Shown here: positions 5,511 to 46,933 of the stretch, one piece after another
Numbering within the stretch: position 1 is the stretch's first letter
Layout: every line of letters begins with the position of its first letter
Source of the DNA: Sphingobium sp. KCTC 72723
GTDB lineage: Bacteria; Pseudomonadota; Alphaproteobacteria; Sphingomonadales; Sphingomonadaceae
Assembly: GCF_014280435.1 (NCBI RefSeq)
Contig: NZ_CP060388.1
Coordinates: 3,051,501-3,115,500 of the forward strand
Length of the DNA stretch: 64,000 nucleotides
Direction: 5' to 3'
Notes under the pieces: generated by a model
Told to the model about the DNA's origin: nothing
Seen by the model: only the letters and a program-made list of their open reading frames with translations
Databases searched by the model: none
Made by a program: the position numbers and the translations under genes

Positions 5511-6287
5511 TCAGATGGACAACCCGCCTTCGACCGGGATGACTGATCCGGTGACGTAGGCACCCGCGCGAGACGCCAGATAGATCGCCGTCCCGGCCAA
5601 GTCTTCCGGCGTTCCCACGCGCCCCCGTGGCACCATGCCCACCACCATCTTGCGCATTTCGTCCGATGCGATCACGGTCATTTCGGACTCGAAAAAGCCC
5701 GGCGCAATGACATTGGCAGTGATGTTGTCGCGGCCCAGTCGCTTGGCCAGTCCCTTGGCCATCCAGTGGATCGCGCTCTTGGACGCCTGATAGGCGTAAT
5801 TTTCCTTCGGCCCGACCTTGAGCGCGCCCACCGACCCGATGTTGATAAGTGAAGCCGGGCGATCCGCCGTGCCGCCTGCGCGCAGCAGCGGCAGGAATTT
5901 CTGGAGGATGAAGAAGGGCGCTTTCAGGTTCAGGTCGATCACTTGGTCCCAGTCGTCCTCGCTATAATCGTCGATCGGCGCATCGGCCATCGTCCCGGCA
6001 TTGTTGACCAGCATGTGCAGCGCGCCTTCGCGCGCCGCGACCTGCGCCACCAGCGCGTCGATCCCCGCCAGCGTCGACAGGTCGGCCGTCAGCCCGACGC
6101 ACTTGCCGCCGGTCGCCTCACTGATCGCCTGCGCCGCGGCCAGCACCTTGGCCTCGGTCCGGGCGCAGATATAGACCTTGGCCCCCGCTGCCGCGTATCC
6201 GGTGGCGATGTGGCGGCCAATCCCGCTCGACCCGCCGGTGACGAGCGCAACGCGGCCCTGGACGGAAAACAGCGCGTCGATGTTCAT
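5511..6287 (-). CDS. Classical SDR oxidoreductase
   Basis: A 258-residue NAD(P)-dependent SDR. T-G-G-S-S-G-I-G is the cofactor loop, V-N-N-A-G the structural motif, S in N-I-G-S-V-G and Y-Q-A-S-K the catalytic residues, and the C-terminus has the P-V-E-G-G-L pattern. It closely resembles the SDR at 19170-19946 in this window (shared layout of an L-L-P-E/L-L-R-A-G loop, T-A-D-R/D-P-A-x-I-I-N-I-G-S-V), so the two are probably paralogues. It overlaps the hydrolase upstream by 4 bp. Likely oxidises or reduces a hydroxyl/keto group of a pathway intermediate. Confidence 0.88.
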   Translation of the reverse strand: MNIDALFSVQGRVALVTGGSSGIGRHIATGYAAAGAKVYICARTEAKVLAAAQAISEATGGKCVGLTADLSTLAGIDALVAQVAAREGALHMLVNNAGTMADAPIDDYSEDDWDQVIDLNLKAPFFILQKFLPLLRAGGTADRPASLINIGSVGALKVGPKENYAYQASKSAIHWMAKGLAKRLGRDNITANVIAPGFFESEMTVIASDEMRKMVVGMVPRGRVGTPEDLAGTAIYLASRAGAYVTGSVIPVEGGLSI

Positions 6288-7024
6288 GCCCCGCCCCTCG
6301 ATGCTGCGATCTTCAGGATCAGGTCCACTGTCCCTTCGGGATCGCCCACCAGCAGCGCATGATCGCCCGGATGGTCGTGGATAGTCCAGCCCAGCGCGCG
6401 CGCGCGATCATGCATTGCGGTCATGACGGTGATAGCCGCCGCGATATAATCGACTGGCTTGGTGATCGTTTCCGCGCCGACCGGAATGACACAGGATGTC
6501 GCCCGCATCGGCTGGTCGGTCAGATTATCGAGCAGCCATTGCTGACGGTCCGCGTCCATCAGGTGGGGATGGGCTTTTGCCGCTTCACGCTGCATCACAT
6601 CGACGCCAGAGCCGATCGGTCCCTCGCCCGCGTCCAGCATGGCGTCCAGACCAGCAAGCTGATCTTCGGGAACATAGCCCATAAGCGATGCTATACGTTC
6701 GCCCGAATGCGGCACGATGGCGTCGAGATAGATGACGCTGGCGATGCGGTCGCCCACCTGCGCGACTACGCCCGGCGCGACCGTTCCGGCATAGCTGTGC
6801 GCGACCAGAACGACATCGTGCAGATCCTCAAAATGAAAGACGTTGACGATGTCCTGCACATGCGTTGCATTACCAACATTGCGACCGATCAGATGCGCGC
6901 GCTCACCAAAGCCAGTGAAGGTCGGCGTATGGACCTTGTGCCCCTGCGCTTCGAGCAGGTCGCGGACATATTTCCAGGTCCAGCCGCCCATGCCGCCGCC
7001 GTGGAGTAAAACAAATGTGGTCAT
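6284..7024 (-). CDS. Alpha/beta hydrolase, salicylate-esterase/HNL-like
   Basis: A compact 246-residue hydrolase of the small plant-esterase/hydroxynitrile lyase type: the protein starts almost directly with the oxyanion motif L-L-H-G-G-G (residues 6-11), the nucleophile elbow is A-H-S-Y-A-G (Ser77), and the catalytic His is in H-P-G-D-H-A-L-L near the end. It follows the extradiol dioxygenase by 6 bp and overlaps the SDR by 4 bp. Given its place it may hydrolyse a meta-cleavage product or an ester, but the subfamily is functionally broad. Confidence 0.84.
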   Translation of the reverse strand: MTTFVLLHGGGMGGWTWKYVRDLLEAQGHKVHTPTFTGFGERAHLIGRNVGNATHVQDIVNVFHFEDLHDVVLVAHSYAGTVAPGVVAQVGDRIASVIYLDAIVPHSGERIASLMGYVPEDQLAGLDAMLDAGEGPIGSGVDVMQREAAKAHPHLMDADRQQWLLDNLTDQPMRATSCVIPVGAETITKPVDYIAAAITVMTAMHDRARALGWTIHDHPGDHALLVGDPEGTVDLILKIAASRGGA

Positions 7025-7030
7025 GGCAGT

Positions 7031-7987
7031 TCAGGCCTCCGCAGCTTCTGTATTCTGAATAAATTCGGGGAAAGGATCCGGTCCCCACAGGAACATGCTG
7101 TCCTCTGGCGCATGATTGGCTGATGGCCAGTCCACGTCATGGGGTATGAAGTCGATGTCGGCGGAATATTCGCTGAAACTGCCCCATGGGTCGCGGACAT
7201 AATAGAAATAATTGGCACCCAGCACATGCTGGCCCAGCCCCCAGTTGGGACCATAGCCCGCCCGCGCCATGGTCGCGCCGCCCAGGCCCACTTCCATAAC
7301 GGAGCCTACGTCCCAGCTATTATGATGCATCCCGCGCCGGTCGGACAGGACGAGCGCAAGGAGATGATGGTCGCTGCCATGGACGCCGTGCAGGAAGGCG
7401 ACGCCCGGCTCGCTCTTGTCCGACAGGCGCAGGCCCAGCGTCTTTTCATAATAGGCGATCGCCGCGTTCACATCGGTCGTGAAGATCGCGAAATGCGACA
7501 GGCGGCGGGGGTGAACCTTGGGCGCCTGGCTGTTGGGGATCGCGCCGGACTGGCCGGGCGGGGCGCTGACGAAGGAGAAGTGGCTTTTTTCCGCCGGTGT
7601 CGCCTTGTCGGCGGCGCAGACATTGATCGGCAGGCCGTCAAAGCCGCTGAACCAGATGCCCTGCGCCTCCGTACCCGCAGGCGCGTCGATATAGGTGACG
7701 CCACAGGCATCGAGATGCGCGGCAAAGGCGTCCATCTCGTCGGCATAGACGCCAAAGCTGAGATAACGCAGTTGCTTGGCTGTGCCGCCTTTGGCGATGA
7801 CGCCCCAACGATGGGGATTGCCCTGTGTGTAAAGATGCAGCGCGCCGTCGCCGTCGCGCACATCCAGACCAAAGAGGCTGTAGAAGCGGCGTGCATCCTC
7901 CAGATCGGGGACGGCCAGCGCGAAATGGTCGATCGAATGGACGCCCAGCACATTGGCGCGCCGCCCGGCGATGCTCTTGTCGTTCAT
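7031..7987 (-). CDS. Type I extradiol ring-cleavage dioxygenase (VOC fold)
   Basis: A 318-residue, two-module VOC protein. The start at 7987 is supported by GAAGGAGGACAGT just upstream. The catalytic C-terminal module has the three iron ligands of type I extradiol dioxygenases in order: His in R-L-S-H-F, His in G-M-H-H-N-S-W-D-V, and Glu in G-S-F-S-E-Y. These enzymes cleave catechols next to the hydroxyls using Fe(II) and O2. The gene sits between an FAH-fold gene and an alpha/beta hydrolase, the standard meta-cleavage neighbourhood, so it likely opens an aromatic ring produced by the pathway. The exact catechol is unknown. Confidence 0.87.
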   Translation of the reverse strand: MNDKSIAGRRANVLGVHSIDHFALAVPDLEDARRFYSLFGLDVRDGDGALHLYTQGNPHRWGVIAKGGTAKQLRYLSFGVYADEMDAFAAHLDACGVTYIDAPAGTEAQGIWFSGFDGLPINVCAADKATPAEKSHFSFVSAPPGQSGAIPNSQAPKVHPRRLSHFAIFTTDVNAAIAYYEKTLGLRLSDKSEPGVAFLHGVHGSDHHLLALVLSDRRGMHHNSWDVGSVMEVGLGGATMARAGYGPNWGLGQHVLGANYFYYVRDPWGSFSEYSADIDFIPHDVDWPSANHAPEDSMFLWGPDPFPEFIQNTEAAEA

Positions 7988-28584: not shown

Positions 28585-30927
28585 GTGACGTTGGACAATC
28601 TACATCGCATGACAGCCTCTGCTGGCGATATTGCGGCTTTGCTGGGTGCCAGCACGCTGGGCGCGATGATGAAGGCGGCTGAAGCGCTGACGCTGGAGGG
28701 TCATGGCGCGCGCGTCACCTATTCGCGCAAGGTGTTCATTCCGCTGACCAAATTATGCCGCGACGTCTGCCATTATTGCACCTTCGCCACCACGCCTGCA
28801 CGGGCAGGCGACGCTTATCTCAGCCGCGACGAAGTGCTGGTGATCGCAAGGGCAGGGGTTGCGGCAGGATGCCGGGAGGCGCTGTTCACGCTGGGCGATC
28901 GGCCCGAAGATCGCTATGGCGCGGCGCGTGAGGCGTTGGCGCGTCTGGGCCATGACTCCACCTTGTCCTATCTCGCCGAAATGGCCGAACTGGTGCTGCA
29001 AGAGACAGGCCTGCTGCCGCACCTTAACCCCGGTTTGATGGATGGGGCGGACTATGCCCTGTTGCGGCCCCATGCCGCGTCGATGGGCATCATGCTGGAA
29101 AGCAGCGCCGATCGGCTGTGCGCGCGCGGCGGCCCGCATTTCGGGTCGCCCGACAAGGAGCCTGCGCGCCGTCTGGCCACGATCGCCGAGGCGGGCCGCG
29201 CCAAAGTGCCTTTTACCACCGGGCTGTTGATCGGCATCGGAGAAACCCGCGACGAACAGGTCGAAGCGCTGGTCGCCATCCGCGACCTGCATCGCCAATA
29301 TGGCCATGTTCAGGAAGTTATCATCCAGAATTTCCGGGCCAAGCCCGGCACGCGGATGGCCGATCATGCCGAACCGGCGCTCGACGATCATCTCTGGGCG
29401 ATCGCCGCCGCGCGACTGATCCTTGGGCCGGACATGACGATCCAGGCGCCGCCCAACCTGCACGACCAGGTCGATCTCGCCCCGCTGATCCGCGCCGGGG
29501 TCAATGACTGGGGCGGGGTGTCGCCGGTGACGCCCGACCATGTAAATCCCGAAGCGCCCTGGCCGCATCTGGAGACATTGGCGCAGGCCACCCGCGCCGC
29601 TGGCCGCACCCTCGCCCAGCGGCTCGCCATCGGACCACGTTATGCGCTGGCGGCGCCGGATTGGGCTGCGCCGGCGGTCGCGACTAACATCCTCCATGCC
29701 ATCGACGGACGTGGCTTGCCCAAGCCCGACGATTGGGCCGCCGGACATGGTGACGACGCCGCGCCCGCCCTGATCGGGGCCGATGTCGGCCAGGCATCGG
29801 CATCGGTTCTGGCGCTTTTGCGCGATGCCGAAGCCGGTGCGCGATTAAGCGAACGTGACATAGTCACGCTGTTCGATGCGGATGGCCATGATCTTTCCGC
29901 TATCGTCGCGCAGGCCGACCGGCTGCGGCAGGAGAGCGTCGGCGACACTTTGACCTATGCCGTCAACCGTAACATCAACTACACCAATATCTGCCTCTAC
30001 AAATGCGGCTTCTGCGCCTTTTCCAAGGGCAGTACGAAGGCGATGCGCGGCCCCGCCTACCGGCTCGACTATGCCGAGGTCGGACGGCGCGCGGCGGAAG
30101 CCTGGGATCGCGGCGCGACCGAAGTCTGCCTGCAAGGGGGCATCCATCCCGACTATGACGGCAACACCTATCTGGCGGTGCTGAAGGCCGTGCGTGAAGC
30201 CGCGCCCGATATTCATATCCACGCCTTCTCCCCGCTGGAAGTCACCCATGGCGCGCAGACGCTGGGCCTGCCGCTGGAGGATTATCTGGCGCAGTTGAAG
30301 GCGGCGGGCCTCTCTACCTTGCCCGGTACAGCGGCCGAGATACTCGACCCTGAAATCCGCGCCTTGATCTGCCCGGACAAGGTCAGCGCGGACGAGTGGA
30401 TCGAAGTGATGCGCGTCGCCCATGGCATCGGCCTGCGCAGCACCGCGACGATCATGTTCGGCCATGTCGAGGGATATCGCCACTGGGCGCGCCACCTGCT
30501 GCGCATCCGCGCCTTGCAGGAACAAACCGGCGGCTTCACCGAATTTGTCCCCTTGCCCTTCGTCCATATGGAAGCGCCGATCTGGCGCAAGGGGCTGGCC
30601 CGGTCGGGACCAAGCTATCGCGAGGCCGTGCTGATGCACGCCATCGCCCGCATCGTCCTGCACCCGCTGATCCCCAATATCCAGGTATCCTGGGTCAAGA
30701 TGGGGCCGGAGGGGGCCGCCGCGATCCTGAACGCGGGTGCCAACGATATGGGCGGCACGCTGATGGACGAATCGATCACCCGCGCGGCGGGCGGCGTCAA
30801 CGGCCAGGAATTCGGCCCCACGCAAATGCGCGCGCTCGCCGCATCGGTCGGACGCCCCGTCTGCCAGCGCACCACCCTCTACGAGCCGGTATCGCCCCGG
30901 CAAACCCACATCACGGAGTCCCTATGA
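28585..30927 (+). CDS. fbiC: FO synthase, CofG-CofH fusion (coenzyme F420 biosynthesis)
   Basis: A 780-residue double radical-SAM protein, GTG start after GCGGAGTAAG. The CofG half (about 40-370) has the cluster motif C58-R-D-V-C62-H-Y-C65; the CofH half (about 430-770) has C470-L-Y-K-C474-G-F-C477. FbiC joins tyrosine and 5-amino-6-ribitylaminouracil to make FO, the 7,8-didemethyl-8-hydroxy-5-deazaflavin chromophore of F420. The fused form is typical of Actinobacteria; separate CofG and CofH occur in archaea. It is translationally coupled to an SDR and to an F420:NADP oxidoreductase gene. Genes for the later steps (CofC/FbiD, FbiA, FbiB) are not in the window. Composition is like that of its neighbours. 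Confidence 0.93.
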   Translation: MTLDNLHRMTASAGDIAALLGASTLGAMMKAAEALTLEGHGARVTYSRKVFIPLTKLCRDVCHYCTFATTPARAGDAYLSRDEVLVIARAGVAAGCREALFTLGDRPEDRYGAAREALARLGHDSTLSYLAEMAELVLQETGLLPHLNPGLMDGADYALLRPHAASMGIMLESSADRLCARGGPHFGSPDKEPARRLATIAEAGRAKVPFTTGLLIGIGETRDEQVEALVAIRDLHRQYGHVQEVIIQNFRAKPGTRMADHAEPALDDHLWAIAAARLILGPDMTIQAPPNLHDQVDLAPLIRAGVNDWGGVSPVTPDHVNPEAPWPHLETLAQATRAAGRTLAQRLAIGPRYALAAPDWAAPAVATNILHAIDGRGLPKPDDWAAGHGDDAAPALIGADVGQASASVLALLRDAEAGARLSERDIVTLFDADGHDLSAIVAQADRLRQESVGDTLTYAVNRNINYTNICLYKCGFCAFSKGSTKAMRGPAYRLDYAEVGRRAAEAWDRGATEVCLQGGIHPDYDGNTYLAVLKAVREAAPDIHIHAFSPLEVTHGAQTLGLPLEDYLAQLKAAGLSTLPGTAAEILDPEIRALICPDKVSADEWIEVMRVAHGIGLRSTATIMFGHVEGYRHWARHLLRIRALQEQTGGFTEFVPLPFVHMEAPIWRKGLARSGPSYREAVLMHAIARIVLHPLIPNIQVSWVKMGPEGAAAILNAGANDMGGTLMDESITRAAGGVNGQEFGPTQMRALAASVGRPVCQRTTLYEPVSPRQTHITESL

Positions 30928-31754
30928 CTGATCTCTTGCACCCCCTGAAGGACAAGGTGGCGATCATCACGGGCGGCGGCAGCGGCATTGGCCGCGCCAC
31001 CGCGCTGATGATGGCGCAGCGCGGCGCGAAGGTCGCGATCACGGGCCGCACCGAAGCGCGGCTCGCGCATGTCGTCGAAGAAATCGCGGCGCAGGGCGGG
31101 CAGGCGCTGGCCGTCGCCATGGACGTCATGGAGGAAGCCTCGATCGCGGCGGGGATAACCAAGGTGGTCGATCGTTTCGGACGCCTCGACATTCTCCACA
31201 GCAATGCCGCCCAGACCGGCCTGATGCACGAAGATGCGCTGATCGCCGACATGGACGTCGCCTTCTGGGACCGCACCTTCGCCACCAACCTGCGCGGGTC
31301 GATGCTGTGCGCCAAGCACGCCATCCCCCATCTCCTGTCGGCAGGCGGCGGGTCGATCGTCTTTACCGGTTCCGGCAAGGGGCTGGCGGGCGACCTCGAT
31401 TATCCCGCTTATGGCACGACCAAGGCGGGGATGCTGGGCCTCTCCAAATATATTGCCACCCAATATGGCAAGCAGGGCATCCGCTCCAACGTCGTCGTAG
31501 TCGGGCTGGTGATGACGGAGGCGCTGGACGACAATATGCCGCCCGAAGCGCAGAAGCTGATGACCGAACATAATCTGGTCGATTATCTGGGTCGCCCCGA
31601 AGATATCGCCGAAGTCGTCGCCTTCCTGGCATCCGATCAGGCCCGCTATGTCACCGGCGCATCGATCGTCGCCGATGGCGGCTTCACATCCCATTCGGCG
31701 GTCTATGCGGACATGATGCGCTTCGCCGCCATGCAGACGGAGACACAGTCATGA
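30924..31754 (+). CDS. SDR oxidoreductase in F420 operon
   Basis: A 276-residue classical SDR; the ATG at 30924 overlaps the fbiC stop by 4 bp, and an upstream extension of the frame is only a shadow of fbiC. Motifs: T-G-G-G-S-G-I-G, S-N-A-A, G-S-G-K and Y-G-T-T-K. After the usual A-D-G-G-F it has a C-terminal extension S-H-S-A-V-Y-A-D-M-M. The SDR at 56417-57217 shares this extension pattern and much of the body, so they are probably paralogues. Likely substrate: a ring hydroxyl/keto group that is also handled by the F420 enzymes. Confidence 0.88.
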   Translation: MTDLLHPLKDKVAIITGGGSGIGRATALMMAQRGAKVAITGRTEARLAHVVEEIAAQGGQALAVAMDVMEEASIAAGITKVVDRFGRLDILHSNAAQTGLMHEDALIADMDVAFWDRTFATNLRGSMLCAKHAIPHLLSAGGGSIVFTGSGKGLAGDLDYPAYGTTKAGMLGLSKYIATQYGKQGIRSNVVVVGLVMTEALDDNMPPEAQKLMTEHNLVDYLGRPEDIAEVVAFLASDQARYVTGASIVADGGFTSHSAVYADMMRFAAMQTETQS

Positions 31755-32407
31755 GCCTTCCTGCTATCGCCATCGTCGGCGGCACCGGCAATCTGGGCGC
31801 GGCGATCGCCTGGCGGCTTGCCCGCGCGGGCTATCCCGTCGTCATCGGATCGCGCAGCGCGGACGGCGCGCAACAGGCGGCCGCAGAGCTTGGCCACGGC
31901 CTATCGGGTGCCACCAATATCGACGCGGCGACGGGGGCGGACATCGTCTTCGTCACCGTGCCCTTCGCCGCGCAGGACGCGACGCTGCGCGACATCGCGC
32001 CGCATGTTATGGGCAAGATCGTCGTGGACACCACCGTCCCGCTGGTCCCGCCCAGGGTGATGCGCGTCCAACTCCCCGCCGAAGGATCGGCCGCGCTCCG
32101 TGCGCAGGTCGCGCTGGGCGAAGGCGTGACTGTCGTTTCCGCCTTCCACAATGTCGCCGCGCACAAGCTGGCCAAGGATGTCGATGTCGGCTGCGACGTG
32201 CTGGTGTTCGGCGATGACAAAGCGGCGCGCGGCCAAGTGGTCGCCCTTGCCGACGCGATGGGCCTGCGCGGCCTGCACGGCGGCGCGCTGTGCAATTCGG
32301 CGGCAGCCGAAGCGCTGACTTCGATCCTCATCTTCCTCAACAAGACCTACAAGGTCGACGGCGCGGGCATCCGCATCACCGGCGACCTGATCCCGCCTGC
32401 CGATTGA
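31751..32407 (+). CDS. npdG: F420-dependent NADP oxidoreductase-like (NpdG/Fno)
   Basis: A 218-residue Rossmann protein with I-V-G-G-T-G-N-L-G-A-A-I at the N-terminus and V-I-G-S-R-S, the G-G-T-G-N-L-G and G-S-R pattern typical of F420H2:NADP oxidoreductases, as well as A-G-A-L-x-N-S-like G-A-L-C-N-S-A-A-A-E-A-L-T-S near the C-terminus. It would transfer hydride between NADPH and F420, giving F420H2 for the LLM reductases nearby. It overlaps the SDR by 4 bp (ATGA). Short length (218) matches the family. Confidence 0.85.
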   Translation: MSLPAIAIVGGTGNLGAAIAWRLARAGYPVVIGSRSADGAQQAAAELGHGLSGATNIDAATGADIVFVTVPFAAQDATLRDIAPHVMGKIVVDTTVPLVPPRVMRVQLPAEGSAALRAQVALGEGVTVVSAFHNVAAHKLAKDVDVGCDVLVFGDDKAARGQVVALADAMGLRGLHGGALCNSAAAEALTSILIFLNKTYKVDGAGIRITGDLIPPAD

Positions 32408-32489
32408 GCGCCCCCTTCCGGGCGGAAGGTGCGACCGGGCCACCGGGCGCGCCATCCTGCCGGGCATAAACGATACAGGGGATAGAGGA

Positions 32490-33410
32490 ATGAAGCTCAA
32501 CATCGGCGTGCCCAATTCGATGCATGTGGCGGCGATGACCCAGCCATGGGAACATGCGCTCACCGGCGACGATATCGGCCGCGCGCTCAAGGTCGCCGAC
32601 GATCTGGGCTTCAACAAATGCATGTTGGGTGAGCATTTCATCATCCCGCAGGAACATATCGCGCTGTCGGGCGACCATTATGTCCATGGCACGGTGGCGC
32701 TCGCCTTCCTCGCCGGGCGGACGTCGAAAATGCGGGTCAGCTCGTCCGTTTCCATCCTCCCGCTGCAAAGCCCGATCGTACAGGCCAAGGCCTGGTCTAC
32801 GCTCGACTGGCTGAGCGGCGGCCGCGCGACCGCTTTGTTCGGCGTCGGCTGGCTGAAGGAGGAATTCGACATGCTGGGCGTCGATTTCCACAATCGCGGG
32901 CGCATGGCGGACGAATATGTCGCCGCGATCATCGAACTATGGACGTCGGACACGCCGACGTTCGAGGGCGAATTCGTCTCCTTCAAGAATGTCGGCTTCG
33001 CGCCCAAGCCAGTGCAGCAGCCGCGCCTGCCGATCTGGTTTGGTGGCGATGCGGAGCCTGTGCTCAAGCGCGTCGCGAAATTCGGCGACGGCTGGTCGCC
33101 TTTCCGCACCCCGCCGGAAAAATTCCCCGCATGTCTCGACCTCATCCGCGCGCAGCCGACCTATGATGGCCGCCCGATCGACCTGTTCTTCGCGCTGGAA
33201 ATGCTCAATGTCGGCGCCCATCACGAAATCATGGACGACCCCCGCGCGCCCGGCACGCGCAACGCGCAAAAGATCATCGACCAGATCGGCTGGCTGAAGG
33301 ATCTGGGCGTCAATGAGACGATCGTGCCGCTGCCACCGGGCATGACGGGCCTTACCGAATATATCGAACGGCTGCACTGGGTGGCCGAAGAGATCATGCC
33401 CAAGGTGTGA
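32490..33410 (+). CDS. LLM-class F420-dependent oxidoreductase (1)
   Basis: A 306-residue luciferase-like monooxygenase (TIM-barrel) family protein. V-A-D-D-L-G-F near residue 40, S-S-V-S-I-L-P-L-Q-S-P, L-S-G-G-R, G-V-G-W-L-K-E-E-F and P-I-W-F-G-G are the usual barrel motifs of the F420-type subgroup (TIGR03619-like). With fbiC and npdG directly upstream, F420 rather than FMN is the likely cofactor. An 82-bp gap separates it from npdG; AGAGGA precedes the ATG. Probably a reductase or dehydrogenase for a pathway intermediate. Confidence 0.86.
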   Translation: MKLNIGVPNSMHVAAMTQPWEHALTGDDIGRALKVADDLGFNKCMLGEHFIIPQEHIALSGDHYVHGTVALAFLAGRTSKMRVSSSVSILPLQSPIVQAKAWSTLDWLSGGRATALFGVGWLKEEFDMLGVDFHNRGRMADEYVAAIIELWTSDTPTFEGEFVSFKNVGFAPKPVQQPRLPIWFGGDAEPVLKRVAKFGDGWSPFRTPPEKFPACLDLIRAQPTYDGRPIDLFFALEMLNVGAHHEIMDDPRAPGTRNAQKIIDQIGWLKDLGVNETIVPLPPGMTGLTEYIERLHWVAEEIMPKV

Positions 33411-35170: not shown

Positions 35171-36247
35171 TCAGACTGGTTCGGCGACCGCCCCGGCACG
35201 CGCTTTCGCTGTGGCGACCAGCGCGTACAGACCCGCATTATATTGCGTCATCTGCTCCATCGTCAGGTCGCGATAGGGCGTCATCGGGCAGAGCGAATCC
35301 ACCACATCCCAGAAGGGCTCTATCTTCTCCAGCACTTCGTCGACCGGGCCGCAGGTCACGAACGCCTCGACCATATCGTCCGACACATTGCCGATGACCT
35401 TGGCGATATCGCCATGTTCGCCCAGGCTGAGCTGGCAAGCGCGGGCCTGGTCGCCAAAGCCGGTCGCTTCGAAGAACGGCTCATATTCCTTATAGCCCGA
35501 ATAGGCGGCGACAGTGGCACGGCTGTCGTCGATCGCCTTTTGCTTGTCGTCATTGATCGCGATCCACGGCCAGGCATTGATTTCGATGTCCGCGCGGCTG
35601 CGACCATATTTGGCCAGCGTCGTTTCGATGAAGGGCAGCTTGCTGCGCGTATAGGCCGCCGACCACAGCGCATGGACCATCAGCCCGTCGCCAACCTCCA
35701 GCGCCAGCGCCGTCATCTTGTCCTGCAACGCAGCGATCCAGATCGGGATTTCCGGGCGCACCGGCGGCGCGGTCAGCATCATCTCGCCAAAATCGGCGGA
35801 GAAATATTCGCCCTCAATCGGGTCCATGCCCGTATGCGCATTGGCGATGACATAGCGGATCACCTTCACGCTCTCGCGCAAATGGGTCAGCAATTTGCGT
35901 TCCGGCTCGCCATACATGCCGGTGACGCAACTCTTGATGCTGGACCCCAGCCCCAGCACGAAGCGCCCGCCCGAAATCCGGTCGACGTCCATCGCCGCAT
36001 AGGCGGTTTCGACTGGGCTGCGCGTGCCCGCGATCGCGACGCCGGTGCCGACTTTCAGATTGCTGGTCAATGCGGCCGTTGCCGCCATCGGCACGAAGGG
36101 CGGGCCGTAGATCTGGAGCGAAAAACAGCCCTCGAAGCCGACCTGTTCCATCTGCTGCCCGATCCCGCCCATCATGGGGGCGGGCAGGGTCGGCATGACG
36201 CCCCACCAGCGGCGTTCGCCGCCGACGGCATTGGCGAGCTGTGTCAT
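35171..36247 (-). CDS. LLM-class F420-dependent oxidoreductase (2)
   Basis: A 358-residue luciferase-like family protein: Q-V-G-F-E-G-C-F near residue 40, K-V-G-T-G-V-A-I-A, R-I-S-G-G-R-F-V-L-G-L-G-S and I-P-I-W-I-A-A-L are the barrel motifs. It belongs to the long F420-type subgroup (TIGR03617/03857-like). Convergent with the KstD-like gene and last of the leftward set that begins with the Rieske-like pair; a terminator with T7 lies just upstream of it, so it may depend on read-through or its own promoter. Substrate unknown. Confidence 0.84.
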   Translation of the reverse strand: MTQLANAVGGERRWWGVMPTLPAPMMGGIGQQMEQVGFEGCFSLQIYGPPFVPMAATAALTSNLKVGTGVAIAGTRSPVETAYAAMDVDRISGGRFVLGLGSSIKSCVTGMYGEPERKLLTHLRESVKVIRYVIANAHTGMDPIEGEYFSADFGEMMLTAPPVRPEIPIWIAALQDKMTALALEVGDGLMVHALWSAAYTRSKLPFIETTLAKYGRSRADIEINAWPWIAINDDKQKAIDDSRATVAAYSGYKEYEPFFEATGFGDQARACQLSLGEHGDIAKVIGNVSDDMVEAFVTCGPVDEVLEKIEPFWDVVDSLCPMTPYRDLTMEQMTQYNAGLYALVATAKARAGAVAEPV

Positions 36248-36258
36248 GGAAATTTCCC

Positions 36259-36291
36259 GAAAAAAATCGGGCGGACCGTCATGGTCCGCCC
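36259..36291 (-). terminator. Rho-independent terminator after Rieske-like pair
   Basis: On the minus strand a 9-bp stem GGGCGGACC/GGTCCGCCC (5-nt loop) is followed by a run of seven T. It ends only about 12 bp before the start codon of LLM gene 2. Confidence 0.8.
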
Positions 36292-36309: not shown

Positions 36310-37383
36310 TCAGAACTGGAACAGTTCCTTACGCAGGCCGATGATATCGCTGCAATCGGCGCTCACATTATCGCGATAGGCAAAATCGCCCTTCGCCTGC
36401 CGATCGCTCAATTCCATCATCGCCATGCGATACCGCTGGCCGGCCTGGTCAAACTTGCTGTGCAAATCCTTGCGATCGGTATGGCGCATATAGCGGGGGC
36501 TTTGTGGGGAGGTCATATAGCTGTCCTGCCGCGACACTTTGTAACCGGCCTTGGGCATGACATAGCTGAACATGCGCCCGGCATTGCTGGTATTCATGAC
36601 CATTTCCATCCGGGTGCGGTCCCGCGTTTCGGGGGTGCATGGGTGGAACAGCGGCACGTCGTCACCGGGGCTGAACCGGCCATAGGCGATCGCGCAGTGC
36701 GACCGCAGATAGATGCGGATCACCTGCCGCACATTCTGGGTCGGCTGCTTGATTCCGCTGAAGAATTTCATCACCGGCGCGACCGATTTGTTGACGCAGG
36801 TGCGGACCATGGTGACAGTCTCGCTGTCGTAAAATGTCTCGATCGTTTCGCTATCCGACCGTTCGTCGCCGACCACGTCGGCGTGCAGGAAATCGGCATG
36901 GGTCAGGTCGATCAGATTCTCCAGGCTGATCGGCGCGGAGCTTTCGAAACGCACCGTCGCCGTCATATGGCGGGGCAGGCCACCCTTGGGCGGAAGGAAG
37001 GGCAGGCTGGGCAAATGGCGCGGATCGGCAGCCAGCGGATTGCCCAGCCAGGCCCAGACGACGCCATAATGTTCCATCACCGGATAACGGCCGCGCGCGT
37101 CGGTGTAATCGCTCTTGTCGCGCACCACGCGCTCATTGGGGTGGAACTCGCTCGCCACGACCACGCCATTGTCGCGCCACAGGAAGATAGGGTTGGAATA
37201 GACGGCGCGGCGCACCGGCTTGCCCGTCACCGAATAATCGTGGGCAACCGGGAACCAGCTGTCGCGCATTACGATATTGTGCGGCACCCAACGGTTGACG
37301 ACATTCATGGCGATGGGGCTGCCACCCGATGGCGGCGCGCTATGGTTTTCGTCAGAGACGGGGCGATCGGCGATTTCCAACAT
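36310..37383 (-). CDS. Rieske-oxygenase-like alpha subunit lacking the Rieske cluster
   Basis: A 357-residue homologue of ring-hydroxylating oxygenase alpha subunits. The N-terminal framework is recognisable (R-D-S-W-F-P-V-A-H at 40-48, G-K-P-V-R-R, P-I-F-L-W-R-D), but the stretch that should hold C-x-H...C-x-x-H is shortened to about residues 75-99 and has no Cys. The mononuclear iron motif is intact: N156-L-I-D159-L-T-H162-A-D-F-L-H167. It should therefore bind O2-activating iron but needs electrons from another subunit, presumably the adjacent Rieske-bearing protein. The ATG at 37383 is chosen because GGAGG lies 8 nt upstream. Confidence 0.85.
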   Translation of the reverse strand: MLEIADRPVSDENHSAPPSGGSPIAMNVVNRWVPHNIVMRDSWFPVAHDYSVTGKPVRRAVYSNPIFLWRDNGVVVASEFHPNERVVRDKSDYTDARGRYPVMEHYGVVWAWLGNPLAADPRHLPSLPFLPPKGGLPRHMTATVRFESSAPISLENLIDLTHADFLHADVVGDERSDSETIETFYDSETVTMVRTCVNKSVAPVMKFFSGIKQPTQNVRQVIRIYLRSHCAIAYGRFSPGDDVPLFHPCTPETRDRTRMEMVMNTSNAGRMFSYVMPKAGYKVSRQDSYMTSPQSPRYMRHTDRKDLHSKFDQAGQRYRMAMMELSDRQAKGDFAYRDNVSADCSDIIGLRKELFQF

Positions 37384-37397
37384 GTTCAAATCCTCCT

Positions 37398-38336
37398 TCA
37401 GGCCGCTACGGTCTGGTCATGGGTATCCTGCGTTGCGTCGAGCAGGGCGTTGCGCAAATCCTCGCCATGGAGCGATACGGTCGGTTTGGTGGTCCGCAGC
37501 TTCGATCCGTCGATGGACGAAAGGACGGTCAGCGGATTGACCCCGCGCAACATCGCGCCGCGCAGCCCGGCCCGGCGGACGCCCAGTTCCGCGCGCCAGC
37601 GCACTGCGGTCACACCGCGCGCTGCTGGGACGGGCGACAGGACGGCATGGAGCAGGTCGTTGAAGGCGTCGTCGCGCAGCGTCAGATGCGTCTCGCCGGT
37701 CAGCGGATGGGTGCGGGTCAGCAGCGTCAACGGAAATTCGGCGACGAAATGGGATGGCCAGTGCAGCGGATACCACTGGCAACTGCGCTCCATCACCAGC
37801 ATCCCGCCCTCTTCATGCAGTTCGGACATGATATAGGGGCTGAACCGCACACCGCGGATCGACAGGATCAGCGCGGGATCATCATATAGCGCATCCAGAT
37901 ATTCCTGATGGCTGCAACTGACATTGACGGTGCCGATATAGCGATATTTGGGTTCCGCGCTCAGCGGCGCTTCCGCCTTGGGGTTCAGACAGACGCGCAC
38001 GAAACCGGCCTGTTCGCTGACGCCAAAGGCATTGGCCTTGTAGATCGGCGGAAATTTCTGCTGATCCTTCATGTTCGGGATCTCTTTCAGCCGCCCCGTC
38101 TCGCCATCATAGCTCCAGCCATGATAGCCGCACTGGATCAGCCCATTGTCGCGGATACAGCCCAGCGACAACGGTGCGCGGCGGTGCGGACAGCGGTCCT
38201 CCAGCGCGCGGGCAATGCCCTGATTGTCGCGCCACAGCACCACCGGCTGCTCGCCAATATCCACCGACAGCGGCTTTTTGGACGTGACTTCCTCAGACCG
38301 GGCGACGGCCCACCAAAGATCGGTATCGAGACTCAT
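37398..38336 (-). CDS. Rieske-oxygenase-like subunit lacking the mononuclear iron site
   Basis: A 312-residue protein with a full Rieske [2Fe-2S] motif, C49-P-H51 and C69-G-Y-H72, in a standard N-terminal Rieske domain (P-V-V-L-W-R-D, L-E-D-R-C-P-H-R-R-A-P-L-S-L-G). Where the catalytic domain should have D-x2-H-x4-H, the sequence is L-D-A-L-Y-D-D-P-A-L-I-L (about 147-158) with no His. It would carry electrons but not react with O2 itself. Start at 38336 after AAGGATAAGCGCC. It precedes the Rieske-less partner by 14 bp and is divergent from the TetR gene. Confidence 0.87.
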   Translation of the reverse strand: MSLDTDLWWAVARSEEVTSKKPLSVDIGEQPVVLWRDNQGIARALEDRCPHRRAPLSLGCIRDNGLIQCGYHGWSYDGETGRLKEIPNMKDQQKFPPIYKANAFGVSEQAGFVRVCLNPKAEAPLSAEPKYRYIGTVNVSCSHQEYLDALYDDPALILSIRGVRFSPYIMSELHEEGGMLVMERSCQWYPLHWPSHFVAEFPLTLLTRTHPLTGETHLTLRDDAFNDLLHAVLSPVPAARGVTAVRWRAELGVRRAGLRGAMLRGVNPLTVLSSIDGSKLRTTKPTVSLHGEDLRNALLDATQDTHDQTVAA

Positions 38337-38402: not shown

Positions 38403-39068
38403 ATGGATCAGCTGATGCTCGATCGACCCCCGCGCGCCCGTGGCCGCCCCGCCCTCAACGCCGTCCAGGCCGTGGACGAGGACAAGCTGCTGGGCCTGGC
38501 CTTTGCGACCTTCGCCGAACGCGGCTATGAAGGGACGACGCTGCGCGACCTGTCGAAACGGTTGGGCGTCAGCCACAATCTGCTCAACGTGCGTTTCGGG
38601 CGGAAGGAGGATCTGTGGGTTCGCGCGGTCGATTGGCGCATGGCGCAAGCGTCGCCCTTCGTTGAAGCCGCGTTCGACGAACCGGCTGATGCCGAAGTCC
38701 GGTTGCGTCACCTGATCCAGCGCTTTTGCCTGTGGGCGACCCGCAATGGCGACATCGTCTCGCTCACCAATGTCGAAGGATGCCGCTCGACCTGGCGGCT
38801 CGACCATATCGTCGAACATTTCGTGTTGCCATTTCAGCGGCGGCTCGATGACCTGCTGGACGCGGTGCGGCGGCAGCGGTCGGTGCATGGCCTGTCGACT
38901 CCGGCGCTGATGGCGCTGCTGGTGCAGGGTGTGGGCTATTATTTCTGCGCCGTGCCGATGCAACAGCGTTTGGGCGCTGGCGGCGAAGTGGATGACGCCC
39001 ATGCCGCCGCGCAGGCCGACCGGCTTGCCGACTTCCTGCTCGCCGCGCTGCTTCCTCCCATTGCCTGA
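38403..39068 (+). CDS. TetR-family regulator
   Basis: A 221-residue TetR protein. Residues about 25-70 are the DNA-binding domain (L-A-F-A-T-F-A-E-R-G-Y-E-G-T-T-L-R-D-L, R-L-G-V-S-H-N-L-L-N-V-R-F-G-R-K-E-D-L). The C-terminal helical domain is the ligand pocket. Divergent from the Rieske-like pair, which it likely represses. ATG at 38403 used; an ATG at 38415 is possible. Confidence 0.88.
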   Translation: MDQLMLDRPPRARGRPALNAVQAVDEDKLLGLAFATFAERGYEGTTLRDLSKRLGVSHNLLNVRFGRKEDLWVRAVDWRMAQASPFVEAAFDEPADAEVRLRHLIQRFCLWATRNGDIVSLTNVEGCRSTWRLDHIVEHFVLPFQRRLDDLLDAVRRQRSVHGLSTPALMALLVQGVGYYFCAVPMQQRLGAGGEVDDAHAAAQADRLADFLLAALLPPIA

Positions 39069-39080
39069 CTTGCGCCGCCG

Positions 39081-39398
39081 TCAGTCTTCCGGCGCGATGG
39101 TAACGGTCAGGCCGGATAATGCGTCGCTCATCATCACCTGGCAGGACAGGCGGGAGTTTTCGTTACGATGGGGCGATCCGTCGAGCAGGTCGCTTTCATC
39201 CTCCGTTACCGGCGGCAGGATCGCGGCGACCGCCGGATCGACATAGACGTGGCACGTCGCGCAGGAACAGCAACCACCGCACAGCGCCAGCAATTCGTCG
39301 AATCCGGCATCACGAATGGCCTCCATCACCGAAACATTGGCGGGCGCATCAATCGTCTTGCAGGTGCCGTCGCGGGTGATGACGTTCAGTTCGGGCAT
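39081..39398 (-). CDS. Adrenodoxin-type [2Fe-2S] ferredoxin
   Basis: A 105-residue ferredoxin with the ligand pattern [14 protein letters not shown] (C-x5-C-x2-C) and the fourth Cys in S-R-L-S-C-Q-V, as in putidaredoxin/adrenodoxin. Such ferredoxins deliver electrons to P450s and some Rieske oxygenases. The only P450 of the window (57726-58946) and the Rieske pair are candidate partners; no ferredoxin reductase gene is present. GAGGAATATC precedes the ATG and the shared palindrome lies 62 bp upstream. Confidence 0.92.
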
Positions 39399-45333: not shown

Positions 45334-45789
45334 ATGAGCGACGCACTGGCCATGCTGCTGGATTATGAAGCGATCCGTCAGGTGAAGGCGCGCTATTGCC
45401 GCCTGCTCGATACCAAGGATTGGGACGGCTTCATCGGCCTGTTCACGCCCGACGCGGTGATGGACGTGCAGGAGGATACCGGAAATCCGCCGATCAGCGG
45501 TCATGCCGCGATACTGGAGCAGGTGCGATCCGCCGTCATCGATGCGCAGACCGCACATCAAATCCATTCGTCCGAAATCACACTGCAAGGCGACAGCGCC
45601 GATGTCGTCACCGCCATGCAGGACCGGGTGGTGTGGGCGCCGGGCACATGCCCCATCCCCGGCGGCGCATCGATCACCGGCTTTGGCCATTATACCGAAC
45701 GCTATGTGCGCGTGGACGGCGCGTGGAAGATCGCCTTCCTCAAACTCACCCGCCTCTATGTCGAAGTGCATCCCGCGCCTGTCCTTTGA
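45334..45789 (+). CDS. SnoaL/NTF2-like protein
   Basis: A 151-residue SnoaL-like protein: Y-E-A-I-R-Q-V-K-A-R-Y-C-R-L-L-D-T-K-D-W opening, L-F-T-P-D-A-V-M-D-V, and G-H-Y-T-E-R-Y-V-R-V-D-G-A-W-K-I-A as the core strand pair, like the bile-acid-baiE-type dehydratases and SnoaL_4 members. Thirteen bp after the DUF1214 gene; GAGGG precedes the ATG. Its last codons overlap the shared palindrome at 45778-45793. A dehydratase or isomerase role is plausible. Confidence 0.83.
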   Translation: MSDALAMLLDYEAIRQVKARYCRLLDTKDWDGFIGLFTPDAVMDVQEDTGNPPISGHAAILEQVRSAVIDAQTAHQIHSSEITLQGDSADVVTAMQDRVVWAPGTCPIPGGASITGFGHYTERYVRVDGAWKIAFLKLTRLYVEVHPAPVL

Positions 45790-45793
45790 CAGG
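45778..45793. promoter_or_regulatory. Shared 16-bp palindrome, copy 7 (perfect)
   Basis: CCTGTC-CTTT-GACAGG, a perfect dyad that spans the stop codon of the SnoaL gene and ends 57 bp before the LLM gene 3 start. Placement suggests control of the LLM/phosphotransferase pair. Confidence 0.7.
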
Positions 45794-45850
45794 TTGCGAA
45801 GTGTCCGCTGCGCGGCAATCCTGCCCGCCATAGATTTGAGAGGACAGGAT

Positions 45851-46933
45851 ATGACGGCAGCAATGGAACCCGGCGCGCAGGCGTTGTTCGACAAGTTCGG
45901 CACCTATATCCTGCCCGGACGTGTCACCGATCCGCGCCGGGGTATTGAGGAGGCGCAGGAGGCCGAGCGGATCGGGCTGGGTTGCGTGTGGATTTCCGAA
46001 CGCTATGCGCTGAAGGAACCGGCGGTGCTGGCGGGCGCGGTATCGCAGGCGACGTCGAAGATCCGCATCACCGGCACCATGTATGCGACGATGCGCCACC
46101 CGCTGGTCACTGCCAGCGTCGCGGACCTGATGCAGGCGATGAGCGGGGACCGTTTCCGCCTGATGTTCGCGCGGGCGGTGCCTGCTTATATGAAGATGCT
46201 GGGGTCGCCGCCGATCACGATGGAGCGGCTGGCCGACCTCATTTCCATCTGCCGTCGCCTGTGGGCGGGGGAGAAGGTCGATTATGAGGGCATATTGGGC
46301 AAATTCCCCGCGATCAGCCTGACCGATCGCCATGGCGGCACACCGCCGCCGATCATCTTTACCGCCATCGGTCCCAAGAGCCTGGAATTTGCCGGCGAAC
46401 ATTGCGACGGGGTGCTGCTGCATCCCTTCGTATCGGCGCAGGGGGTGAAGAACAGCACGAAGATCGTGCGCGATGCCGCCGAAAAGGCCGGGCGCGATCC
46501 GATGGCGGTGCGCATCTATCATAATATCATCGTCGCCCCCGACCTGCCCAAGGATGAGGAGGAAGCGGTCGTTGGCGGCCGGGCCATCACCTATTTCGAG
46601 CTGCCCGGTTTCGGCGACCTGATCGTGGATATCAATGGCTGGGACAAGGGTGTGCTGGACCAGATCCGCGCCCACCCCAAGATTGCCAGCCTGAACGGCA
46701 AGCCCGCGGACCAGGCCTATACGCGGCAGGAACTGGTCGATGTCAGCAAGCTGATCCCGCAACATTGGCTGGACGAGGGCGCGGCCGTCGGCACGGCGGC
46801 GCAGTGCGCCGACCAGTTGATGGCGTTTCTGGATGCCGGGGCGGACGAGATATTGCTGCATGGTTCATCGCCCAAGGACATGGGTCCGCTGACCGTCGAG
46901 CTGAAGCGCGCTCTGGCGGCGAAGGGGCTGTAA
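45851..46933 (+). CDS. LLM-class F420-dependent oxidoreductase (3)
   Basis: A 360-residue luciferase-like family protein. A-E-R-I-G-L-G-C-V-W near residue 40, R-I-T-G-T-M-Y, M-S-G-D-R-F-R-L and P-P-I-I-F-T-A-I-G-P are the barrel motifs; it matches the TIGR03857-like F420 subgroup. The ATG at 45851 follows GAGAGGACAGGAT; longer forms of the frame are shadows of the SnoaL gene. Followed after 3 bp by the phosphotransferase gene. Third member of this family in the window. Confidence 0.85.
   Translation: MTAAMEPGAQALFDKFGTYILPGRVTDPRRGIEEAQEAERIGLGCVWISERYALKEPAVLAGAVSQATSKIRITGTMYATMRHPLVTASVADLMQAMSGDRFRLMFARAVPAYMKMLGSPPITMERLADLISICRRLWAGEKVDYEGILGKFPAISLTDRHGGTPPPIIFTAIGPKSLEFAGEHCDGVLLHPFVSAQGVKNSTKIVRDAAEKAGRDPMAVRIYHNIIVAPDLPKDEEEAVVGGRAITYFELPGFGDLIVDINGWDKGVLDQIRAHPKIASLNGKPADQAYTRQELVDVSKLIPQHWLDEGAAVGTAAQCADQLMAFLDAGADEILLHGSSPKDMGPLTVELKRALAAKGL

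Follow-up and report, generated by a model that had tools for sequence, protein, structure and literature searches.

The question raised by two adjacent genes in a 64,000-nucleotide stretch of Sphingobium sp. KCTC 72723 (the window; contig NZ_CP060388.1, positions 3,051,501 to 3,115,500) is whether two incomplete Rieske oxygenase-like proteins can make up one enzyme. Gene A encodes a protein with the ligands of a Rieske [2Fe-2S] cluster, gene B encodes a protein with the ligands of a mononuclear iron, and each lacks the site that the other has kept. It is highly likely that A and B combine as subunits into a single Rieske non-heme iron oxygenase, which originated by duplication and loss of opposite metal sites, and they very probably function only as a team.

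A contains the ligand motifs C49-P-H51 and C69-G-Y-H72, the position of the iron motif is occupied by L-D-A-L-Y-D152-D-P-A-L-I-L with no histidine at the aligned positions, and the only Pfam match above cut-off is Rieske (PF00355, 3.8e-25). B contains D159-L-T-H162-A-D-F-L-H167, has a shortened N-terminal domain from which the Rieske cysteines are absent (its only cysteines are residues 196, 230, 249 and 344) and matches VanA_C alone above cut-off (PF19112, 1.4e-31). The coordinates, strands and residues given for both genes in the initial annotation of this DNA, made from the letters alone, agree with the sequence and with Pfam. The division of the motifs, with the Rieske motif in A and absent from B and D-L-T-H-x4-H in B, recurs in 47/47 aligned pairs, many of which are close relatives rather than independent events (45 pairs from a pattern-based genome scan and two paralogous pairs of genome G035; locus L101 was excluded for its broken B frame). 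Both halves of the earlier claim, namely Rieske ligands without iron-site histidines in A and an iron motif without Rieske cysteines in B, are thereby borne out. Aligned with full-length Rieske oxygenases, B is missing the finger region and A is without the iron histidines. As compared with a canonical alpha subunit, CxH...CxxH is present in 47/47 A and 0/47 B proteins, so that A, and through it the pair, has this motif; the two-domain alpha-subunit fold is retained, and the iron site and the bridging aspartate are not on the same chain as the Rieske cluster.

The invariant residues of A in the 47 pairs are C49, H51, C69 and H72 plus D152 and P154, and those of B are N156, D159, H162, H167, Q286 and D287. 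D287 is probably the third iron ligand of B, as it aligns with an aspartate in 6/6 full-length Rieske oxygenases (four from this genome, two from others). D159 is the counterpart in sequence alignments of D157 in DdmC (dicamba monooxygenase), a position which we take to be that of the aspartate bridging the Rieske histidine to the iron histidine of the next subunit. In A, D152 and P154 are encoded at 37875-37883 (minus strand), and the aspartate at the bridging position is kept in 47/47 pairs despite the lost iron histidines. The loose pattern [DEN]xxHx4-5H (x represents any amino acid) occurs in two of the 47 A proteins (L076 and L083), but lies there 9-17 residues ahead of the position to which the iron site aligns. 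Ratios of nonsynonymous to synonymous substitution (dN/dS, NG86 method) are well below 1 (A, 0.06-0.10; B, 0.04-0.08; three comparisons each), and selection on both genes is thus purifying. Sequencing error, pseudogene formation and chance are ruled out by the conservation, by these ratios and by the paralogous pairs (two in G006 and three in G035, where identity of the second and third pairs goes down to 32-36%). The initial annotation had named ligands hidden by a sequencing error as a possible refutation, which is excluded by the other genomes.

The two genes are found almost exclusively together. In a set of 150 genomes, matches to A and matches to B fall in the same 16 (own genome included); there are 19 of each, and they form 19/19 adjacent pairs. 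A genome collection with one genome per species was scanned with the B alignment, starting from two peptide patterns by which divergent members are missed, and the pattern-based scan gave 49 loci, or 48 after removal of L112 (Mycobacterium), an ordinary full-length Rieske oxygenase. The iron motif is present and the Rieske motif absent in 48/48 B proteins, and a Rieske-bearing A lies directly upstream in 46/48; at L095 the contig ends 102 bases upstream and A is found at the edge of another contig of the same genome, while at L111 A is located 10.5 kb away on the other strand of the same contig. Seven distant genomes that were followed up contain 15 full-profile A and 15 B genes, forming 13 adjacent pairs, and four more A-profile matches covering the Rieske part alone (model positions 4-133 at most) in other open reading frames (ORFs). 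Both genes were also found in 22 of 24 further loci, several of which are the same genes reached by another route, and the exceptions were again the L095 and L111 genes. In divergent members the gene context changes and the A-B pair persists.

The pair is present in Sphingobium, Novosphingobium, Croceicoccus, Sphingomonas and Acidocella, on a complete Massilia plasmid, and in metagenome-assembled genomes (MAGs) labelled Acetobacteraceae, Caulobacteraceae, Porticoccaceae, Cellvibrionales and Verrucomicrobiaceae, labels which can be wrong. B was detected in 8/396 genomes of the order (own included) and in 1/398 genomes of the phylum (the own genome), with at most five candidates per genome scored, so that divergent copies may be missed, and in 5/112 genomes of the family of one gammaproteobacterial MAG, three of the five being already known; the distribution looks patchy and rare. 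Three or four paralogous A-B pairs per genome occur in G155, G154 and G153 (Porticoccaceae, Gammaproteobacteria BRH_c0 and Verrucomicrobiaceae MAGs), and such multiple pairs suggest an expansion to different substrates. In the excluded L101 (Paraburkholderia MAG, 5968-7074), B is split over two overlapping frames and the surroundings closely resemble those in Novosphingobium resinovorum (L105), which probably reflects misassembly or a contaminating contig.

The predicted fold of A is that of a complete alpha subunit including a degenerate catalytic domain, and the closest solved structure is DdmC (3gb4/3gke) both for A (Rieske half and whole fold) and for B (iron-site segment). At seven loci A, its TGA stop and B are in one frame, and reading TGA as tryptophan gives an artificial fusion, which was modelled for L071 from a 31-row alignment (7 fused, 19 A-only and 5 B-only rows). 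The model has a mean predicted local distance difference test (pLDDT) of 76.7, a predicted template modelling score (pTM) of 0.73 and a disordered linker; we judge this pTM to be above the expectation for two independently floating halves, and with so shallow an alignment it gives a weak hint of A-B association. Structural matches of the fusion are mainly over A (1-303), and the three KshA structures 2zyl, 4qck and 4qdf_B span fusion residues 1 to 592-618 by their end points; this could stand for the Rieske domain of A plus a portion of B, but nothing is concluded from end points.

In Rieske oxygenases an electron leaves the cluster of its own subunit for the iron in the neighbouring one, a distance of about 12 Å versus 45 Å within a subunit (PMC12445004). 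In the proposed scheme, an ancestral alpha-subunit gene would have been duplicated and its copies would have lost opposite metal sites, A becoming an electron-transfer subunit with a Rieske [2Fe-2S] cluster and a dead catalytic domain, and B an oxygenase subunit with an iron site and a finger-less Rieske domain. Electrons would originate from NAD(P)H and reach the cluster of A by way of a reductase and a ferredoxin, the latter probably that encoded at 39081-39398, and would then cross the A-B interface from Rieske H72 of A by D159 of B to the iron ligand H162, where O2 would be activated at the iron of B and the substrate monooxygenated. If the clusters are on A only and the irons on B only, A to B would be the sole working route. 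What the data establish is the sequence anatomy, conservation, linkage and homology of the pair and the predicted fold of A; we infer the metal loading, the A-B contact, the electron path, its donor and the inactivity of either homomer. The heteromer of an electron-transfer and an iron-only alpha-like subunit put forward in the initial annotation appears well supported by genomics, owing to linkage (46/48 and 19/19), matched copy number (15:15), the invariant complementary ligands and the alpha-subunit fold of A, with the fusion model pointing weakly to physical association.

Several observations weigh against such a heteromer. The fusion tether can favour contact, the alignment is fused in seven rows only and a pTM of 0.73 is moderate, while the hhalign probability is only 83%. 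The distance matrices of the A and B families correlate with r 0.96 (0/2000 permutations as high), as would be expected for linked genes anyway. Structurally characterised Rieske oxygenases are C3-symmetric (PMC12445004), and A and B cannot alternate around a ring with an odd number of members; in a three-membered ring some interfaces would thus be idle, or the assembly would not be a simple C3 trimer. Furthermore, 18 other full alpha-sized ORFs of the host could in principle be partners of A or B, and dioxygenase genes occur near the pair on the Massilia plasmid (annotated) and in L103 (by eye).

These last points bear on the reading in which A and B do not pair with each other but each associate with one or more full-length Rieske oxygenases encoded elsewhere, forming mixed trimers with a complete alpha subunit. 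The host genome has 25 Rieske matches including A; in 18 other ORFs the first Rieske cysteine is followed by 291 residues or more and [DEN]xxHx4-5H is present (18/18), and six have at most 66 residues after that cysteine and all lack the motif, whereas A, with 264 residues and no motif, is the sole match with a large C-terminal part lacking it. The initial annotation had held that an independent full-length alpha subunit pairing with each protein would speak against the heteromer; within the window A is the only one of the genome's Rieske-domain matches, although there are 18 candidates elsewhere in the genome. Dioxygenase alpha/beta genes are located a few kb from the pair in L134 (8227-10238, annotated) and apparently in L103 (8445-10453, by eye), and would fit mixed trimers, yet what travels is the pair itself, plasmids included, and this reading is very unlikely. 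A may also be a stand-alone Rieske ferredoxin-like donor docking transiently to B or to several oxygenases with no stable heteromer, which is unlikely, as ferredoxins have about 105 residues whereas A keeps a complete alpha fold with its degenerate catalytic domain, and the A:B linkage is nearly 1:1. Each protein is without a site essential to the parent enzyme, as would suit structural or regulatory pseudo-oxygenases that are no longer redox enzymes in one or both cases, but the ligands of the metal site that each protein has kept do not vary in 47/47 pairs and purifying selection acts on both genes, and this explanation seems most improbable.

Among known systems, the two-chain chlorophyllide a oxygenase (CAO) of Micromonas (MpCAO1/MpCAO2) is likewise a Rieske oxygenase in two polypeptide chains, as compared by description. 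Kunugi et al. reportedly found in 2013 that CAO1 has the Rieske motif and CAO2 the iron motif, and that both are needed. By the criterion of motifs, the bacterial pair also carries its Rieske and iron motifs on separate chains. MpCAO serves chlorophyll b biosynthesis in algae, whereas the bacterial genes are in tandem, among F420 and luciferase-like (LLM) genes in the window, with DdmC as the closest solved structure. According to PMC9615114, MpCAO1/MpCAO2 had earlier been proposed to form a heterodimer and shows activity with VanB, a reductase not native to it; its authors face a comparable problem of assembly and propose an arrangement such as a trimer of dimers. This system is closer than NdmC, which the initial annotation had taken for the nearest precedent. 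NdmC has the iron of a monooxygenase but no Rieske cluster of its own, and is presumed to be served by one on another protein (PMC4408171). In the 7-methylxanthine N7-demethylase NdmCDE, NdmD combines that Rieske domain with the reductase in one protein and the glutathione S-transferase (GST)-like NdmE is needed, whereas here the cluster is on an alpha-subunit paralogue. An NdmC-type system as the closest relative was ruled out, as the Pfam match of A is Rieske only and its fold that of an alpha subunit; no GST-like match was found among the 28 window proteins scanned with Pfam. DdmC has both metal sites on one chain in an alpha3 assembly (PMC12445004), in contrast to the two chains here. NdmA/NdmB (alpha3 alpha'3) is also a heteromer of two alpha-type chains (PMC12445004), but each chain bears both metal sites (PMC4408171), whereas A and B have one each. 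The bacterial pair may work like the Micromonas CAO and more loosely like NdmC with NdmD, and is filed in neither family. Among the open-access papers listed on two-chain or incomplete Rieske oxygenases and on the steroid or F420 context, judged by titles and the beginnings of abstracts, no bacterial pair of this kind was found described.

Table 1. Coordinates of the A-B pair and adjoining features in the 64,000-nucleotide window.
Feature	Positions	Strand	Remark
Gene A, Rieske-cluster subunit, 312 residues	37398..38336	-	Alpha-subunit fold without iron ligands
Gene B, mononuclear-iron subunit, 357 residues	36310..37383	-	VanA_C domain; Rieske fingers absent
Rieske ligand stretch of A, C49-x-H51 ... 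C69-x2-H72	38121..38192	-	Invariant, 47/47 aligned pairs
D159-L-T-H162-A-D-F-L-H167 of B	36883..36909	-	Putative bridging Asp and two iron His
Codon D287 of B	36523..36525	-	Putative third iron ligand; invariant
A-B gap, 14 nt	37384..37397	-	AGGAGG ribosome-binding-like site
Terminator-like hairpin and T run after B	36269..36291	-	9 pairs, 8 of them G-C
TetR-family regulator, divergent	38403..39068	+	PF00440; similar gene in 33/48 loci
[2Fe-2S] ferredoxin	39081..39398	-	Similar gene in 30/48 loci
Luciferase-like (LLM) oxidoreductase downstream of B	35171..36247	-	Below F420-family cut-offs; similar gene in 35/48 loci

On the minus strand, A is upstream and B follows after a gap (Table 1) whose AGGAGG makes translational coupling probable; the A-B distance ranges from -17 to 33 nt with a median of 15 (46 loci, starts chosen by script). 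Terminator-like sites number 3 in the region versus 2.3 expected from shuffles, and hairpins similar to that after B, with changed stems, were seen by eye in Sphingobium relatives. In 16 loci from other genera, by contrast, an overlap between the LLM gene and the stop of B seems to be present. The stop codon of B falls within ATGA at 17/48 loci, which is consistent with the overlapping start of an LLM gene in most of the 17. The pair is annotated as 'Rieske 2Fe-2S domain-containing protein' and 'oxygenase' on the Massilia plasmid; on plasmid pSA2 of Novosphingobium, A is a 'Rieske (2Fe-2S) protein' and B an 'aromatic ring-hydroxylating dioxygenase subunit alpha'. In both of these annotated records the unrelated-looking product names hide the A-B pairing.

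The initial annotation placed the pair under a TetR regulator, and a TetR gene does adjoin it, but is divergent and 66 bp from A, and is thus a candidate rather than an established controller of the pair; no sigma-70-type site was found in a promoter scan between the two genes. The ferredoxin is a possible electron donor to A, and the LLM oxidoreductase downstream of B is probably in the same pathway. Other neighbours are a sulfotransferase-family protein, an AraC-like regulator, short-chain dehydrogenases/reductases (SDRs), LLM oxidoreductases, TonB receptors and a KstD-like flavoprotein scoring below family cut-offs. In the fetched flanks of the 48 loci, similar genes were found for the SDR (30), flavoprotein (29), sulfotransferase (28), AraC (17), LLM2 (14) and F420-oxidoreductase-like protein (10). 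Signs that this sphingomonad makes and uses cofactor F420 lie at 28585-30927, 31751-33410 and 45503-46933 (all plus strand) of the window and at G000:C1:3310801-3312335. The window contains FbiC/CofGH (1136 bits, cut-off 1018), an F420_oxidored-domain protein and two LLM proteins over F420-family cut-offs, and CofD adjoins an F420 ligase match about 195 kb beyond it; the ligase family matches 3/14 control genomes, all archaea, and CofD, which is less telling, 10/14. On plasmid pSA2 the pair is by annotated cofC, npdG and cofH. The LLM and F420 genes, KstD-like flavoprotein, SDRs and TonB receptors nearby suggest a catabolic role, with a lipophilic alicyclic compound, perhaps a terpenoid or a steroid-like one, as substrate.

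As a wider reading, held with moderate confidence, a patchy bacterial lineage over several phyla or classes would have obligate two-alpha-type Rieske oxygenases that arose by duplication and complementary loss, with electrons passing from A to B only, a new quaternary architecture and, in sphingomonads, perhaps a role in F420-linked catabolism. Transfer from A to B only would exclude a uniform C3 trimer with all interfaces working, and the new architecture may thus be an A-B dimer, A2B2 or (AB)3. In ordinary Rieske oxygenases each subunit is both donor and acceptor, and the inter-subunit path can hardly be resolved unless mutants are used. In the pair, the cluster would sit on one chain and the iron on another, each purifiable by itself, which would allow a clean measurement of inter-subunit electron transfer, of the redox states of cluster and iron, and of stoichiometry. 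The pair would also be a bacterial instance of the complementary division that is reported in algae for CAO, and would test the generalisation that Rieske oxygenases are C3-symmetric.
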